From NCBI RefSeq assembly GCF_009617875.1, contig NZ_BLAV01000001.1:3100001-3164000 (forward strand): a DNA stretch of 64,000 nucleotides, in the 5' to 3' direction. The position numbers and the translations under genes are program-made. This stretch comes from Prolixibacter sp. NT017. GTDB taxonomy: Bacteria > Bacteroidota > Bacteroidia > Bacteroidales > Prolixibacteraceae. Positions 2 to 44,454 of the stretch are shown here, piece after piece. Each line of letters starts with the position of its first letter. The stretch's first letter is position 1. The notes under the pieces are model-generated. The model was not told where the DNA came from. It saw only the letters and a program-made list of their open reading frames with translations, and ran no database searches.

Positions 2-2785
2 CCTACCGAGAAGAAACTGGTCAGCCTAATGGAGAAATACAGCAACGAAAACTTGCTGGAACGATTCGGTAACCGAGGCGGACTGAATGATTTCTTCAAA
101 CACATCGACCTGGATACGTTCACCAAACAGGTGGTTCCGTACATCGAAAAGCAAATTCTCAAGTGCCTCGATTTGCTGAAAGAGGATTCCATCCCCTTGT
201 ATCGGAAGGAGTCCAAATACAGCAATCTATATGAAGAGGATCGTATAGAGCTTTGCTACCGCGACACCAGTGCTGTTTTCAATTTCGAACGGCTTGAGCA
301 CGAAACCCGCTATTATTTGACCATCCGGTACCACGATCAGGAAATTTCGCTGCAACACCGCAACGTGATTCTGCTGACTAACCATCCTTGCCGGTTGCTT
401 TACCAGGGGAAGCTGTATTTTTTCGACAACCTGGCCGGAAATAAGCTGCTTCCTTTCTTCGAGAAAAACTACGTCAGCATTCCGCGCAGTGTGGAAGACA
501 AGTACTACCGAACGTTTGTCCTCAGCACCATTCGTCATCACCAGGTTCACGCCAAGGGTTTTGACATTGTGGAAGGAAATCCGGAAAAGAAAGCCATACT
601 TTCGTTAGAGGAAGACCAGCGAAAGAATCCGCGCCTGATGCTTAAATTCAGGTATAATCAGCGCGATTTTCCTTATATAGACAAGGAGATGCAGGCTGTT
701 TATCTGCGTAAGCAGAACGGGAATTACACTTTTTACAAATTCGAGAGAGACAAGAGTTGGGAGAAAGATTTACTGAAGTCGCTCCGGAAAATGGGATTGG
801 TCAAGACGTCTTCCGGACTTCATCCAGAAGGAATTTCGGATGTTACGAGTAGCGAGTACTTCTACTCATTGATCAACTGGCTGAATAATCATCAGCAGGA
901 GCTGGAAGAAGCGGGTATTGAACTGGAACAGCACAACCTCGACCGTAAATACTACACCGGAAGTCATACTCTCAACATCGAGATAAGTGACGAAAGCGAC
1001 TGGTTCGACATTTACGCTTATGTCAATTTTGGTGAGTTTCGTTTCCCTTTTGTCCGACTGAAAAAGAATATCCTCAACGGGGTCCGGGAATTTCAATTGC
1101 CTAACGGCGAAATTGCTGTTCTTCCGGAAGAGTGGTTCGCCCGCTACCGCGATATTTTCACTCTTTCGGAAGCGGACACAGAACATCTGAAGCTGAGAAA
1201 ACACCATTTCCCGGTACTGGAAAACAACCTGAACGGCGTCCATAAAAAATACCTGAAGAAGTTTGAAACACTGACTCAGGAACAACCGGAAGCTCCGGAG
1301 GTGCCACAAAAGCTCAATGCCCTGCTTCGCTCATACCAGGAAGAAGGTTTCGGTTGGATGTACCATCTTCATCAGCACCATTTTGGCGGTTGCCTGGCGG
1401 ATGATATGGGATTGGGAAAAACGGTGCAGACGCTGGCATTGCTCGTAAAAACACAACGCAAAGTCAACGGATATCCTACGCTATTCGACCAGGTTGAAGA
1501 TGACAACAACGGAAAAAACCGGCAGTTTTCGAAGCATCATCAACCAGCCAGTTTGATTGTGCTGCCGACTTCCCTTGTTCATAACTGGGAAGATGAGATT
1601 TTGAAGTTTGCACCAACGCTCAGGTACTATAAATATATAGGTGCGCGCCGCCGGCATAAAATCAACATGCAGGATCTTATTCACCAGCATGACGTGATTC
1701 TGACCACCTACGGAACAGTGCGCAACGATCGGGAATTCCTGAAGCAATACCAGTTTTATTACCTCATTCTCGACGAAGGGCAATACATTAAAAATTCGGG
1801 CTCGAAAACCTACCGGGCCATTAATGACATGAATGCTTCGCACCGGTTAGTGCTGACCGGGACGCCCATCGAGAATTCGCTTTCCGATTTATGGTCGCAA
1901 ATCAATTTTCTGAATAGAGGACTACTCGGAAGCCTGGCCTGGTTTAAACGCGAATTCATCTCTCCTATTGAGCGGAAAAACGATGAAGAAGCACAAAAAA
2001 AACTACAGCAACTCATTCAACCTTTCATCCTGCGGCGAACGAAAGAGCAAGTAGCCCGTGATCTTCCGCCTTTAAGCGAATTAATCCGGTATGTAGATAT
2101 GACGCCGGAGCAGAAAAAAGCGTATGAGGCTGAAAAGTCTTCCATCCGGAACAACATCCTTTCGAATATCGAGGAAATCAGCCTCGAAAAGTCGGCTTTT
2201 GTGGTGCTACAGGGCCTCATCCGATTGCGACAACTGGCCAATCATCCGGCGATGATTGAGGACAACCAGCACATCGAATCGGAAAAATTCAACGAAATTT
2301 TGCGTATGCTCAGCATCTTGGTTGCGGAGAAACACAAAATTCTCATCTTCTCCTCCTTCGTCAGACAATTGAAATTGCTGTCCAAAGAATTTGAAACGAA
2401 TGGCTGGAACTACAGCCTGCTGACAGGGCAAACCCGCGACCGCAAAAAGGTGATCGACGATTTCCAAAATAACCCAGACAACAATATCTTTCTTATTTCA
2501 CTAAAAGCAGGCGGCGTTGGCCTGAATCTGACCTCAGCGGATTATGTTTTCATTGTCGACCCGTGGTGGAACCCGGCAGCTGAAATGCAGGCTGTGAATC
2601 GCGCTCACCGCATCGGACAGGACAAGAAAGTATTTGTGTACCGCTTTATCACCGAAGGAACCATTGAAGAGAAGATTCAAAAGCTGAAAGAAAAGAAATC
2701 GTCGCTGGCCGAGAAATTCATCAATTCCAACAACCCGTTCCGTTCTGTCTCCAAAGACGAACTCATGCACCTCTTCGAAGACTAA
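2..2785 (+). CDS. SNF2-family DEAD/DEAH helicase (5' end outside window)
   Basis: Superfamily 2 DNA translocase of the bacterial SNF2/RapA-like class, expected to remodel protein-DNA or RNA polymerase complexes with ATP. The first ATG is at 29, but the frame is open to the window edge with plausible protein sequence (PTEKKLVSL) before it, so the true start is probably upstream. Counting from 29, an N-terminal region of about 430 residues without a motif I recognise is followed by Walker A DDMGLGKT (about residue 457), the DEAH-box variant DEGQ (about 581), LTGTP (about 608), and the helicase C-terminal lobe with SLKAGGVGLNL and the arginine finger motif NRAHRIGQ (about 860). The family call is firm; the cellular role is not known from sequence. 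The stop codon abuts an inverted-repeat element at 2784. Confidence 0.93.
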   Translation, partial: PTEKKLVSLMEKYSNENLLERFGNRGGLNDFFKHIDLDTFTKQVVPYIEKQILKCLDLLKEDSIPLYRKESKYSNLYEEDRIELCYRDTSAVFNFERLEHETRYYLTIRYHDQEISLQHRNVILLTNHPCRLLYQGKLYFFDNLAGNKLLPFFEKNYVSIPRSVEDKYYRTFVLSTIRHHQVHAKGFDIVEGNPEKKAILSLEEDQRKNPRLMLKFRYNQRDFPYIDKEMQAVYLRKQNGNYTFYKFERDKSWEKDLLKSLRKMGLVKTSSGLHPEGISDVTSSEYFYSLINWLNNHQQELEEAGIELEQHNLDRKYYTGSHTLNIEISDESDWFDIYAYVNFGEFRFPFVRLKKNILNGVREFQLPNGEIAVLPEEWFARYRDIFTLSEADTEHLKLRKHHFPVLENNLNGVHKKYLKKFETLTQEQPEAPEVPQKLNALLRSYQEEGFGWMYHLHQHHFGGCLADDMGLGKTVQTLALLVKTQRKVNGYPTLFDQVEDDNNGKNRQFSKHHQPASLIVLPTSLVHNWEDEILKFAPTLRYYKYIGARRRHKINMQDLIHQHDVILTTYGTVRNDREFLKQYQFYYLILDEGQYIKNSGSKTYRAINDMNASHRLVLTGTPIENSLSDLWSQINFLNRGLLGSLAWFKREFISPIERKNDEEAQKKLQQLIQPFILRRTKEQVARDLPPLSELIRYVDMTPEQKKAYEAEKSSIRNNILSNIEEISLEKSAFVVLQGLIRLRQLANHPAMIEDNQHIESEKFNEILRMLSILVAEKHKILIFSSFVRQLKLLSKEFETNGWNYSLLTGQTRDRKKVIDDFQNNPDNNIFLISLKAGGVGLNLTSADYVFIVDPWWNPAAEMQAVNRAHRIGQDKKVFVYRFITEGTIEEKIQKLKEKKSSLAEKFINSNNPFRSVSKDELMHLFED

Positions 2786-2869
2786 AAAAAGAAAAGGACA
2801 GACCGGGCGGCCTATCCTTTTACTAAACTAACCAAACTAACTAACCTAACTAAACCTAAACTTATGAAA
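2784..2869 (-). ncRNA. Putative small RNA, copy 1 (hairpin element)
   Basis: Candidate minus-strand RNA of about 85 nt. Seen: a -7 box TATTTTTG at 2876-2883 on the minus strand, then a C-poor tract rich in GGTTTAGTTAGG-like words, then a GC-rich hairpin with AAAAGGA/TCCTTTT outer arms (2792-2798, 2815-2821) and a minus-strand T tract (2784-2790). The block is repeated almost exactly at 2984-3069. Read on the plus strand it would instead be a hairpin followed by CTAAC repeats and a six-codon ORF MKSLQK (2864-2884). The T tract favours the minus-strand reading. No RNA family is recognised. Confidence 0.45.
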
Positions 2870-2983
2870 TCATTGCAAAAATAATTCGCAACACTTCAAA
2901 TAATATTAACTAAAGATTAAATAAACGTTTTCTTCATTTCAATGCTCTTTTCAACAGAGCCTCATCAGACCTTTTTAAAAGTT

Positions 2984-3075
2984 AAAAAAGAAAAGGACGG
3001 ACCGGGCGGTCCATCCTTTTACTAAAACTAACCAAACTAACTAACCTAACTAAACCTAAACTTATGAAAAAAAAT
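2984..3075 (-). ncRNA. Putative small RNA, copy 2 (hairpin element)
   Basis: Second copy of the element at 2784-2869, differing by a few substitutions and one added A. The hairpin here is better paired: GGACGGACCG opposite CGGTCCATCC (arms 2991-2997 and 3014-3020). The minus-strand -7 box TATCTTTG at 3082-3089 is a perfect TAnnTTTG match, and the terminator T tract is 2985-2990. The predicted RNA is about 90 nt. The plus-strand alternative is an eight-codon ORF MKKNVPQR at 3064-3090. Duplication with conserved promoter-like and terminator-like ends supports a real transcription unit; this is inference. Confidence 0.48.
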
Positions 3076-3081
3076 GTACCA

Positions 3082-3089
3082 CAAAGATA
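3082..3089 (-). promoter_or_regulatory. Bacteroidota -7 box for putative sRNA copy 2
   Basis: TATCTTTG on the minus strand matches the Bacteroidota consensus TAnnTTTG. It lies about 7 nt before the expected first base of the putative small RNA. The equivalent box of copy 1 is TATTTTTG at 2876-2883. Confidence 0.45.
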
Positions 3090-3267
3090 ACCGCGCACCC
3101 ATGGGTTCGACGAATTATTTCTGTTAAAAATTGTAAAGATTTATCTAAAAAACCTTAACAAACGTAAAGTCTGTAAAGGCTTTCATTGACTGGGGACAGG
3201 CCATTTCCGGTCGCAAAATTGAATAATGTTAAAAATGTGAACTCCCGCCACTTGAAAATTGAACGCA

Positions 3268-3301
3268 CAAAAAAGGAGCTCCTTTTTCAAGAAACTCCTT
3301 T
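3268..3301 (-). terminator. Terminator of first tRNA-Arg
   Basis: On the minus strand, AAAGGAG directly after the tRNA pairs with CTCCTTT and is followed by a T run. The arms are 3295-3301 and 3272-3278 in plus coordinates. Confidence 0.6.
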
Positions 3302-3302
3302 G

Positions 3303-3376
3303 TGAACCCGGAGGGATTCGAACCCCCAACCTCCTGATCCGTAGTCAAGTGCTCTATCCAGTTAAGCTACGGGTCC
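3303..3376 (-). tRNA. tRNA-Arg(ACG), copy 1
   Basis: A 74-nt cloverleaf reads cleanly on the minus strand: acceptor GGACCCG/CGGGTTC with A discriminator, D arm GCTTAACTGGATAGAGC, anticodon loop CTACGGA giving anticodon ACG, and T loop TTCGAAT. CCA is not encoded. The anticodon stem carries T at position 28, giving a U-G wobble; the second copy has C-G there. The ACG anticodon would be deaminated to ICG by TadA to read CGN codons. Confidence 0.95.
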
Positions 3377-3400
3377 ATATAATGCAGTGATAAAAACTTT

Positions 3401-3436
3401 CAAAAAAATAGAAGCTCCTCACTGCAAGAAGCTTCT
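3401..3436 (-). terminator. Terminator between the two tRNA-Arg genes
   Basis: On the minus strand AGAAGCT pairs with AGCTTCT (3430-3436 and 3410-3416), followed by a T-rich run at 3403-3409. Each tRNA therefore seems to have its own terminator, so the pair may be two transcription units. Confidence 0.6.
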
Positions 3437-3439
3437 CTG

Positions 3440-3513
3440 TGAACCCGGAGGGATTCGAACCCCCAACCTCCTGATCCGTAGTCAGGTGCTCTATCCAGTT
3501 AAGCTACGGGTCC
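3440..3513 (-). tRNA. tRNA-Arg(ACG), copy 2
   Basis: Identical in length and structure to the copy at 3303-3376 except C28 instead of T28, restoring a Watson-Crick pair in the anticodon stem. Anticodon ACG, A discriminator, no encoded CCA. The copies lie in tandem on the minus strand, 63 bp apart. Confidence 0.95.
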
Positions 3514-3628
3514 TTTTGTTTTTGAAAGCGGTGCAAATATAAAGAGTTTTCAATAAACACCGTTACTTTCGGAAGGCTTTTTTCGAAAAAAAAGCACGAA
3601 TTCCGGTAGCCTTCCGAGGCTCAAAACT

Positions 3629-3931
3629 TTATGCACCGTCGTATTTGGCCATTTTGTCTTCTATCGTGACCGGTGTTTCGGCGTTGCTTTGGATTTTCAC
3701 GTACGCGAGCATATTTTCCGCGCCAGCGGCATAGCAAGCCTCATGCACTTTTTTAACGACATCCATCAATTGGTCGAAATCACCCTCCATAACCGTTTCG
3801 AAGGGACAAACACGGTATTTTACACCCGATTCTTCAATAATCTTTATCGCTTCGTCCACCAGCGCGTAAGTATCTTTGTCCTCTGCCCGCGGCAATACCT
3901 GCAGAGCTAAGTTAATCTGCTTGTTCATCAT
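3629..3931 (-). CDS. MTH1187/YqgV-family thiamine-binding-type protein
   Basis: A 100-residue protein of the UPF0045/MTH1187 family, small ferredoxin-like folds reported to bind thiamine or its pyrimidine. Visible family traits are the start MNKQINLALQVLP, the segment DEAIKIIEESGVKYRVCPFETVMEG and the C-terminal AENMLAYVKIQ. Whether it acts as carrier, sensor or enzyme subunit is unknown. Two adjacent Met codons start the ORF (3931 and 3928). The first 20 bp overlap the end of the upstream gene, so the two are probably co-transcribed and translationally coupled. No other thiamine gene lies nearby. Confidence 0.82.
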   Translation of the reverse strand: MMNKQINLALQVLPRAEDKDTYALVDEAIKIIEESGVKYRVCPFETVMEGDFDQLMDVVKKVHEACYAAGAENMLAYVKIQSNAETPVTIEDKMAKYDGA

Positions 3932-39999: not shown

Positions 40000-40036
40000 A
40001 CAAACAAGAAAGGCTGCAACCTCACGGTGCAGCCTT
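40000..40036 (-). terminator. Terminator of the W-rich repeat protein gene
   Basis: Stem AAGGCTGCA/TGCAGCCTT (40010-40018, 40028-40036), T-rich on the minus strand. Beside it (40062-40080, plus strand) is AACTAAACCTAATTATGAA, close to the CTAACTAAACCTAAACTTATGAAA-like edge of the 2784-3075 elements. Confidence 0.7.
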
Positions 40037-40102
40037 CACTCGGAAAAACTATGCATAATGCAACTAAACCTAATTATGAACTATTTGCGTTGGAAATTCT
40101 CG

Positions 40103-44111: not shown

Positions 44112-44348
44112 TTAATTAAGGTTGAGTTCTACCTGCTTATCACCTGAACTCAAAACTGTGTATTGCTTAGCAAAGCTTAAAATATTGTCGACGGTTTCCT
44201 GGGAAGGGCTGTACTTACAAGATTCTTCTTCGCTTTTTAGATTTTCTTGTTTCATTTCCTTATGCCCTTCAACCTCCGTTTTTTCCTTTGATTCACTTAA
44301 ATCTGTTTCAAAAAGGAAATCAAAATAAAGAGTAAAAATTTCGTTCAT
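44112..44348 (-). CDS. Small acidic protein downstream of ECF sigma factor
   Basis: A 78-residue protein starting at the ATG 44348 (MNEIFTLYFDF); the TTG at 44354 is less likely. The middle is charged and probably disordered (DLSESKEKTEVEGHKEMKQEN), and the C-terminus (PSQETVDNILSFAKQYTVLSSG...VELNLN) is helix plus strand and seems to be the conserved part. Small proteins with this ending occur after sigma factor genes in Bacteroidota as far as I recall; no function is known. It lies 106 bp after the sigma gene across a terminator hairpin. Confidence 0.65.
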   Translation of the reverse strand: MNEIFTLYFDFLFETDLSESKEKTEVEGHKEMKQENLKSEEESCKYSPSQETVDNILSFAKQYTVLSSGDKQVELNLN

Positions 44349-44396
44349 AGGCAAGTTAAAAGTGTTTAATATTATGATTGCTTTGTCTTTAAAACG

Positions 44397-44428
44397 AAAA
44401 GGGATGACATTTTATTGTCATCCCTTTT
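44397..44428. terminator. Hairpin between sigma factor and small acidic protein
   Basis: A 12-13-bp stem AAAAGGGATGACA/TGTCATCCCTTTT. It may partly terminate or attenuate the sigma factor transcript before the downstream small gene. Confidence 0.75.
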
Positions 44429-44454
44429 GAATTTTTTTCTTCTTTTTTTAATCA

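Follow-up and report, generated by a model that had tools for sequence, protein, structure and literature searches.

What are the two nearly identical blocks that follow one another between positions 2784 and 3089 of a 64,000-nt stretch of Prolixibacter sp. NT017 (NZ_BLAV01000001.1, 3,100,001-3,164,000; this whole stretch is the window, and its positions are used below)? A sequence-only reading of the same DNA had proposed a tandem pair of orphan minus-strand small-RNA candidates that may pair in trans with translation start regions of the kind found before susC-like genes. Based on anatomy, copy number, conservation, covariation and complementarity statistics, the blocks are probably tandem genes, here called A1 and A2, for FopS-like trans-acting small RNAs (sRNAs) that would pair across the AUG of mRNAs encoding exported proteins, SusC-like transporters foremost. 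FopS is a 14-member sRNA family in Bacteroides thetaiotaomicron with canonical promoter, unpaired 5' seed and terminator (PMC11697453).

Anatomy of the two blocks

The coordinates of the two blocks, with their boxes and minus-strand hairpins, were confirmed as the sequence-only reading had given them. A 45-nt core, AAACTAACC...CTTATGAAA, is 100% identical between the copies (2825-2869 and 3025-3069), the 50-nt hairpin side is 88% identical between the two blocks, and the spacing is 199-200 bp. The boxes on the plus strand are CAAAAATA at 2876-2883 and CAAAGATA at 3082-3089, which on the minus strand read TATTTTTG and TATCTTTG, respectively. The 5' tract, said to lack C and to be single-stranded, has the C of CATAAG as its sole C and is unpaired in the centroid fold. 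Fold energies are -19.5 and -21.1 kcal/mol for the minus strand in comparison to -10.6 and -17.6 kcal/mol for the plus strand, and the minus-strand stem of the downstream copy is held by G-U pairs at plus-strand mismatches. Intrinsic terminators, each with a 13-bp stem and a T tail, are found on the minus strand at 3020-2991 and 2821-2792, and terminator-like sites in 2600-3700 number 4 in comparison to 1.2 (standard deviation 1.0) expected from shuffles. Judged from these signals, each block appears to be a complete small-RNA gene with a TAnnTTTG box, a U-rich start carrying CAUAAG, a nearly C-free unpaired tract and a terminator; the box, the T-tailed terminators and the better minus-strand fold with its G-U pairs support the proposed strand. 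The parts of the two putative genes are as follows.

2985..3075, minus strand: sRNA gene A1, about 91 nt, with its 5' end placed near 3075 from the promoter box
2983-3076, minus strand: A1 match to model R1, 98.9 bits, the copy itself being part of the R1 alignment
3082..3089, minus strand: A1 promoter -7 box TATCTTTG, seen in the sequence, its spacing conserved in the extracted copies
3058..3074, minus strand: A1 anti-start seed UUUUUUUUCAUAAGUUU, CATA core invariant in two alignments of relatives
3021..3060, minus strand: A1 C-free GGUUUAGUUAG-type tract, unpaired in the centroid fold
2991..3020, minus strand: A1 intrinsic terminator, 13 bp, T tail to about 2985, with compensatory changes in the family helix
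2786..2870, minus strand: sRNA gene A2, about 85 nt, 5' end probably near 2870
2784-2876, minus strand: A2 match to model R1, 92.4 bits, this copy also being part of the R1 alignment
2876..2883, minus strand: A2 promoter -7 box TATTTTTG, seen in the sequence
2858..2869, minus strand: A2 anti-start seed UUUCAUAAGUUU with a short U run, seen in the sequence
2792..2821, minus strand: A2 intrinsic terminator, its T tail overlapping the stop codon of the convergent helicase gene

Copies, conservation and covariation

The covariance search for relatives that had been suggested shows the pair to be no orphans, since they are two of about 11 genes in a multicopy group. With R1 at E <= 0.001 the own genome contains 10 copies, namely the window pair, five at 570.3-571.4 kb, two at 53-54 kb and one at 4521 kb, and an eleventh, weak copy is found at 54.1 kb. 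By a sorting of our own, the seeds fall into class A (window) CATAAGTTTAGG, class B (570 kb) CATAGGTTTGGATTTAG and class C (4521 kb) CATAGGAATCTTTAAG, with the 53-54 kb copies loosely class C-like, and several relatives likewise have more than one seed class together with tandem clusters. In a DNA search of 61 genomes at E <= 0.001, 37 matched, including 36/37 genomes of the own family (own genome included) and 1/24 of the others; the lone match outside the family covers 31 nt only, and the lone miss within it is genome G021.

The fetched copies have a nearly constant 5' part, TTTCATAAGTTTAGGTTTAGTTAG in class A, and a variable hairpin. In the terminator helix of 33 aligned class A and class B copies, 97.5% of 396 cells are paired, in comparison to 59-61% after sliding the partner by one column. 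Changes on both sides were observed in 41 cells, and this count and the covariation score were reached by 0/500 shuffles, while the number of helix pairs with a both-side change, 7/12, was reached by 48/500 shuffles, all these covariation counts being inflated by sequence kinship. Extraction by script, with copies chosen by a UUAG-rich probe, gave 74 distinct copies from 46 loci. Six further candidates, which the script scored as having no terminator, are outside this count of 74 (L008 is cut by a contig end and the other five resemble true copies). TAnnTTTG stands no more than 40 nt before CATA in 62/74 copies and at 15-17 nt in 57/74, in comparison to 4% of shuffled promoters, and a TTAAC word lies further upstream in 57/74 copies, a count without control. 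The number of UUAG words per linker is 5.0 in comparison to 0.5 in shuffled linkers, a figure inflated by the UUAG-rich probe. Just before the -7 box, 20/34 class B promoters in comparison to 2/28 of class A carry a TGTT..AACA-like palindrome, e.g., ATGTTTTAAAACAT, which at loci L035, L037, L040-L045 and L047 resembles the operator of a regulator, the count being inflated by copies from one genus.

These data bear on two explanations without any sRNA. The plus strand is start-region-like, CCTAAACTTATGAAA, and could be the leader of a decayed gene, which the sequence-only reading had raised against itself. In 71 copies, the frame after ATGAAA has a median length of 10 codons (followed for up to 25 codons, it meets no stop in 6/71), and the promoter box, the T tail and the G-U tolerance all favour the minus strand; because the frames are short and the box and terminator are conserved on the minus strand, this explanation is disfavoured and seems to us very improbable. 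We give as little credence to the blocks being functionless debris of a repeat or mobile element: the tandem copies, and a hybrid copy in the genome G003 that suggests repeat recombination, would fit debris, and family-wide retention, covariation and fixed promoter spacing argue against it. The hybrid, a single copy in this close relative (locus L004, match 1501-1606), joins the A1 promoter side to the A2 downstream side, so the tandem repeats seem to recombine.

A scan of the order with stricter filters, under which weak matches may be lost, gave a match in 21/344 genomes, 5 of the 21 within the family. Among the 16 outside it, the T-run/CATA core was recognized by eye in 11; of the remaining five, L118, L122 and L124 were without clear core, and in L111 and L114 it was unseen at the match. 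The core UUCAUA..UU...UUU is invariant in 16 aligned 5' ends from 8 families, rows that were selected for showing the core; the consensus of this alignment is TTTTTTTTCATAGGTTTAGGTTTAGTTA, with CATA invariant.

A plasmid search with the class A query returned no match. Phage origin was rejected: among the 30 phage records with a match at E up to 10, the best one resembles a start region and not an sRNA, with 23 nt at E 0.007 in the 735-kb record LR756501 and an identical stretch in LR756503. In LR756501 (194989-196211), CTAAATCCAAACCT-ATGAAAAAA stands behind TATCTTTG and the frame runs to the end of a 70-codon open reading frame. This start region is complementary to the class B seed, and the RNA could pair there.

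Complementarity to translation start regions

The U run and CAUA are the antisense of U-AUG-AAA, so that the RNA is complementary first to the AUG with the lysine codons behind it and next to the leader. About 45 SusC-type genes were found in the genome; their start consensus is UUCAAAUCU-AUG-AAAAAA (the longest ATG frame giving the start), and C is found at -2 in 57% of 44 SusC starts in comparison to 22% of 348 other genes. The word AAAYCTATGAAAAA occurs at 13 places in the 5.1-Mb genome (reversed control 0), which by coordinates are 9 SusC starts, 1 start of a 291-aa protein and 3 frames of 9-20 codons. The class B seed CAUAGGUUUGGA, by reading, has no mismatch to the consensus UUCAAAUCUAUG when G-U is allowed. 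As a side observation, a SusC gene with stops at the contig end (680-3385) is identical in its start region to an intact SusC gene close to the opposite end (5119670-5122636), which may reflect either self-overlap of the contig or a duplication.

For target statistics, 392 start regions were used, 44 of SusC genes and 348 of other genes, with automatic starts and about 9% of the genome sampled. The mean duplex energy of A1 was -16.5 with the 44 SusC starts and -13.8 with the other genes, and shuffled RNA gave -12.8 (standard deviation 1.0). Energies were lower for SusC than for other starts with p 8e-9 for class B, 1e-7 for A1 and 0.002 for A2, which has the short U run, and those of class B and A1 with SusC were also below their own shuffles. 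In comparison to 66 non-SusC genes beginning with MK, the p values were 4e-5 (B), 0.002 (A1) and 0.09 (A2), and SusC starts make up 9 of the top 20 among the 392 for class B and 11 for class C. Trans-acting pairing with start regions is supported as the likely mode, as had been suggested. The likeness to susC-type starts that the sequence-only reading saw in the window blocks holds for their sister classes: the SusC match is good for classes B and C and modest for the window class A. A weaker point is CTAAACCTAAACTTATGAAA, which in this genome is no common gene start: at no more than 3 mismatches it has 4 matches (reversed control 1), namely the two copies, the weak RNA relative at 54 kb and one other.

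In the mechanism that we propose, each gene would have its own TAnnTTTG promoter, from which minus-strand transcription would run to the strong intrinsic terminator, and the unpaired 5' end with its U-run and CAUAAGUUUAGGUUUAG would be complementary to a generic start region (...CUAAACCUAAACUUAUGAAAAAA). Once paired with the AUG and the adjoining part of the leader, it would keep ribosomes from loading on mRNAs of envelope and exported proteins, including those of SusC-like transporters, and about nine further copies with other seeds (B and C, the better SusC matches) would share the work. That the genes are transcribed, that their RNAs pair and repress in the cell, and that RRM-1 proteins might exert some control is what we infer from the observations above.

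The window class most likely works by this mechanism, too, with a probable leaning towards a different set of targets. When the 392 start regions are ranked by predicted pairing with A1, the first eight are all non-SusC. The best partner type is GCAAACTAACTAACCAACCG-ATGAAAAAA at -27 kcal/mol, with GCAAACTAACTAACCAACCG directly before ATG, and among seven proteins read from the top partners, three begin with MKK followed immediately by a hydrophobic stretch. Class A could accordingly be regulating a non-SusC set, mRNAs with CUAACUAACC leaders next to AUG, such as those of predicted envelope or exported proteins; we hold this sub-case, which is compatible with FopS-like action, to be possible, at somewhat below even chance. 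The non-SusC top eight and the hydrophobic N-termini in several of them support it, as does the excess in the leaders of the 348 genes of CTAACC (7 vs reverse 0) and CTAAC (17 vs reverse 7). Other leader words are without excess (ACTAA 39 vs reverse 46), and these are small counts from the same 9% of the genome. Two of the four best A1 partners (own contig 2182518 and 2612064) have an MKK start and the word FNGKDL(T/S)GW, and are possibly one protein family.

Seed and leader changes across genomes

If the seed is the antisense of the start consensus, targets become readable from leaders, and changes in the seed should go with changes in the leader. C at -2 of SusC starts was 36-57% in genomes with CATAGG class B seeds in comparison to 0-30% in genomes with CATAAG seeds. 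The relationship was suggested by the own genome (G000) and G031 and tested on six others, with SusC genes taken in listing order and not all. In these six, the ratio of starts with CT to those with TT at -2,-1 was 14:14 for CATAGG seeds in comparison to 11:40 for CATAAG seeds (one-sided Fisher p 0.010, the genes not being independent). The energy matrix of cognate versus non-cognate pairs in 7 genomes was not significant (p 0.09), and because of this the co-evolution of seed and SusC start consensus is only suggestive. A more general model, in which Bacteroidales would have order-wide anti-start-codon RNAs whose seed is antisense to, and co-evolves with, the start consensus of exported and SusC proteins in the lineage, with several classes per genome splitting the targets, a UUAG tract for RRM-1 proteins and FopS as the Bacteroides branch, is put forward tentatively, and we would sooner bet against it than for it. 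The presence of the same layout in another family, and in outline in further families, suggests that start-codon antisense control of sugar uptake is old and general in bacteria that are without classical sRNA chaperones and Shine-Dalgarno signals.

A FopS-like family in Bacteroides xylanisolvens

Our stand-in for FopS, of which the published text consulted gives no sequence, is a family in B. xylanisolvens XB1A. When 800 kb of that genome were searched for box, TTCAT and terminator, there were 7 candidates, among them 4 near-identical RNAs, and the whole genome has 12 copies (11 exact over 31 nt and one with a mismatch; reversed control 0). All 12 have the box, and by eye a hairpin and T run, in the layout TATCTTTG-N7-TTTTTCATAGTATTAGATTTAAGGTTAACAAAGG. 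FopS is reported with 12-15 copies per Bacteroides genome, 15 in B. xylanisolvens, and as conserved within Bacteroidaceae (PMC11697453); judging by copy number and anatomy, we infer that the 12-copy family is FopS. In these 800 kb, model R2, for which the 16 5' ends from outside Bacteroides were used, has 5 hits at E <= 10, and all 4 FopS-like copies present there are among them; this result partly depends on the candidate search in that the TTCAT criterion is also part of R2. An intermediate seed, CATAGATTTAGATTTGGTTAACAAAG, is found in family f30, with one half common to the FopS-type side and the other to the family studied here. A guessed FopS seed used as B. xylanisolvens query was discarded, having matched its source only.

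Several results weigh against the assignment of A1 and A2 to FopS-like RNAs acting on start codons. R2 scored the four B. xylanisolvens copies at E 0.14-0.18 each, with something else as top hit, and R1 at E up to 10 left the canonical copies of that genome unlisted and gave one variant at E 6.7. Rfam, in a release not seen to hold a FopS model, found nothing in the window at gathering score beyond two tRNAs, and at E up to 10 for six loci, tRNAs aside, only sub-threshold matches to unrelated families. On the target side, A1 and A2 paired no better with SusC starts than with those of 16 MKK genes (p 0.76 and 0.75; class B slightly better, p 0.02-0.05), and SusC starts among the top 20 of 392 numbered 3 for A1 (p 0.39) and 1 for A2 (p 0.91), a weak preference. 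The genome scan for complementary start regions, which the sequence-only reading had recommended, gave SusC starts for classes B and C and, for the window seed, turned up no target in the genome that is both long and exact: AAACTTATGAAA occurs at 5 places (reversed control 2), two of which are the A1 and A2 copies. The other three were rejected as exact targets, being one 125-aa frame start and two frames of 6 and 3 codons.

The C-poor, UUAG-rich tract (its enrichment inflated by the UUAG-rich probe) brings in another explanation, which is that the sRNAs chiefly serve RRM-1 proteins as sponge or docking platform, with the tract binding RbpB-like proteins and the start-like 5' end only competing for them. 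FopS is described as binding the susC mRNA start region and blocking translation in vitro, opposed by the RRM-1 protein RbpB, which it binds via its 5' part (PMC11697453), and RbpB is reported to bind GUAGGAUA (PMC12119571, citing Adams 2021). There are three RRM-1 genes in the own genome, and the protein of one matches P. gingivalis 7JLY in a PDB comparison among 315 RRM-type sequences. A role of the tract in RRM-1 binding is our guess. Across families (in chosen rows) nothing is as constant as CATA with its flanks, and for two sister classes the match to SusC starts exceeds what composition would give. Both results argue against the sponge, and we consider it unlikely, with pairing over start codons by FopS-like RNAs remaining the preferred explanation.

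Neighbouring genes and other sites in the window

A1 and A2 lie between the following genes, with a thiamine-binding protein gene as a further neighbour.

29..2785, plus strand: SNF2-type helicase gene, convergent neighbour (PF00176, E 9e-78)
3302..3376, minus strand: tRNA-Arg (ACG), upstream neighbour
3439..3513, minus strand: second tRNA-Arg (ACG)

The SusC gene search listed no match within the window. Two weak R1 matches, at 40000-40088 (minus strand) and 44336-44435 (plus strand), with 24 bits and E 0.04, have a TTCATA word and a terminator hairpin and lie at gene ends; they are possible distant relatives or chance matches, and were left uncounted, with no TAnnTTTG box in the bases before them.

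Comparison with known systems

The sequence-only reading saw possible trans-acting relatives of the cis-antisense RNAs at susC-like starts; the closest known RNAs are the trans-acting FopS and not those of the DonS type (PMC11697453). Similar to DonS of Bacteroides fragilis, a small RNA repressing a polysaccharide utilization locus (PUL), the RNAs studied here have a predicted repressing role, but DonS is encoded divergently to its PUL, while the neighbours of A1 and A2 are helicase, tRNA-Arg and thiamine-binding protein genes, with no SusC match listed in the window. They resemble GibS (PMC7366714) in an unpaired 5' seed pairing with start regions; a key difference is that GibS has 145 nt, two seeds, middle hairpins and promoter motif 2, in comparison to about 90 nt, one hairpin and the canonical box here, no scan aimed at motif 2 being included. 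In the literature covered, which leaves most subscription papers outside, no FopS/GibS-like RNAs were found outside Bacteroidaceae. With FopS they share multiple copies (about 11 here), the canonical TAnnTTTG box and a single-stranded 5' seed followed by one terminator; the B. xylanisolvens stand-in also begins with a U-run, here with CAUAG and then UUAGAUUU. Unlike in FopS, the seed of the RNAs studied here diverges after CAUA, there are at least three seed classes in one genome, close tandem clusters and a UUAG-rich tract, and in comparison to FopS, which binds susC starts, the window class has its better predicted fit with leaders of non-SusC genes. The predicted A1 and A2 RNAs would be FopS-like RNAs in another family, with divergent and multiple seeds.

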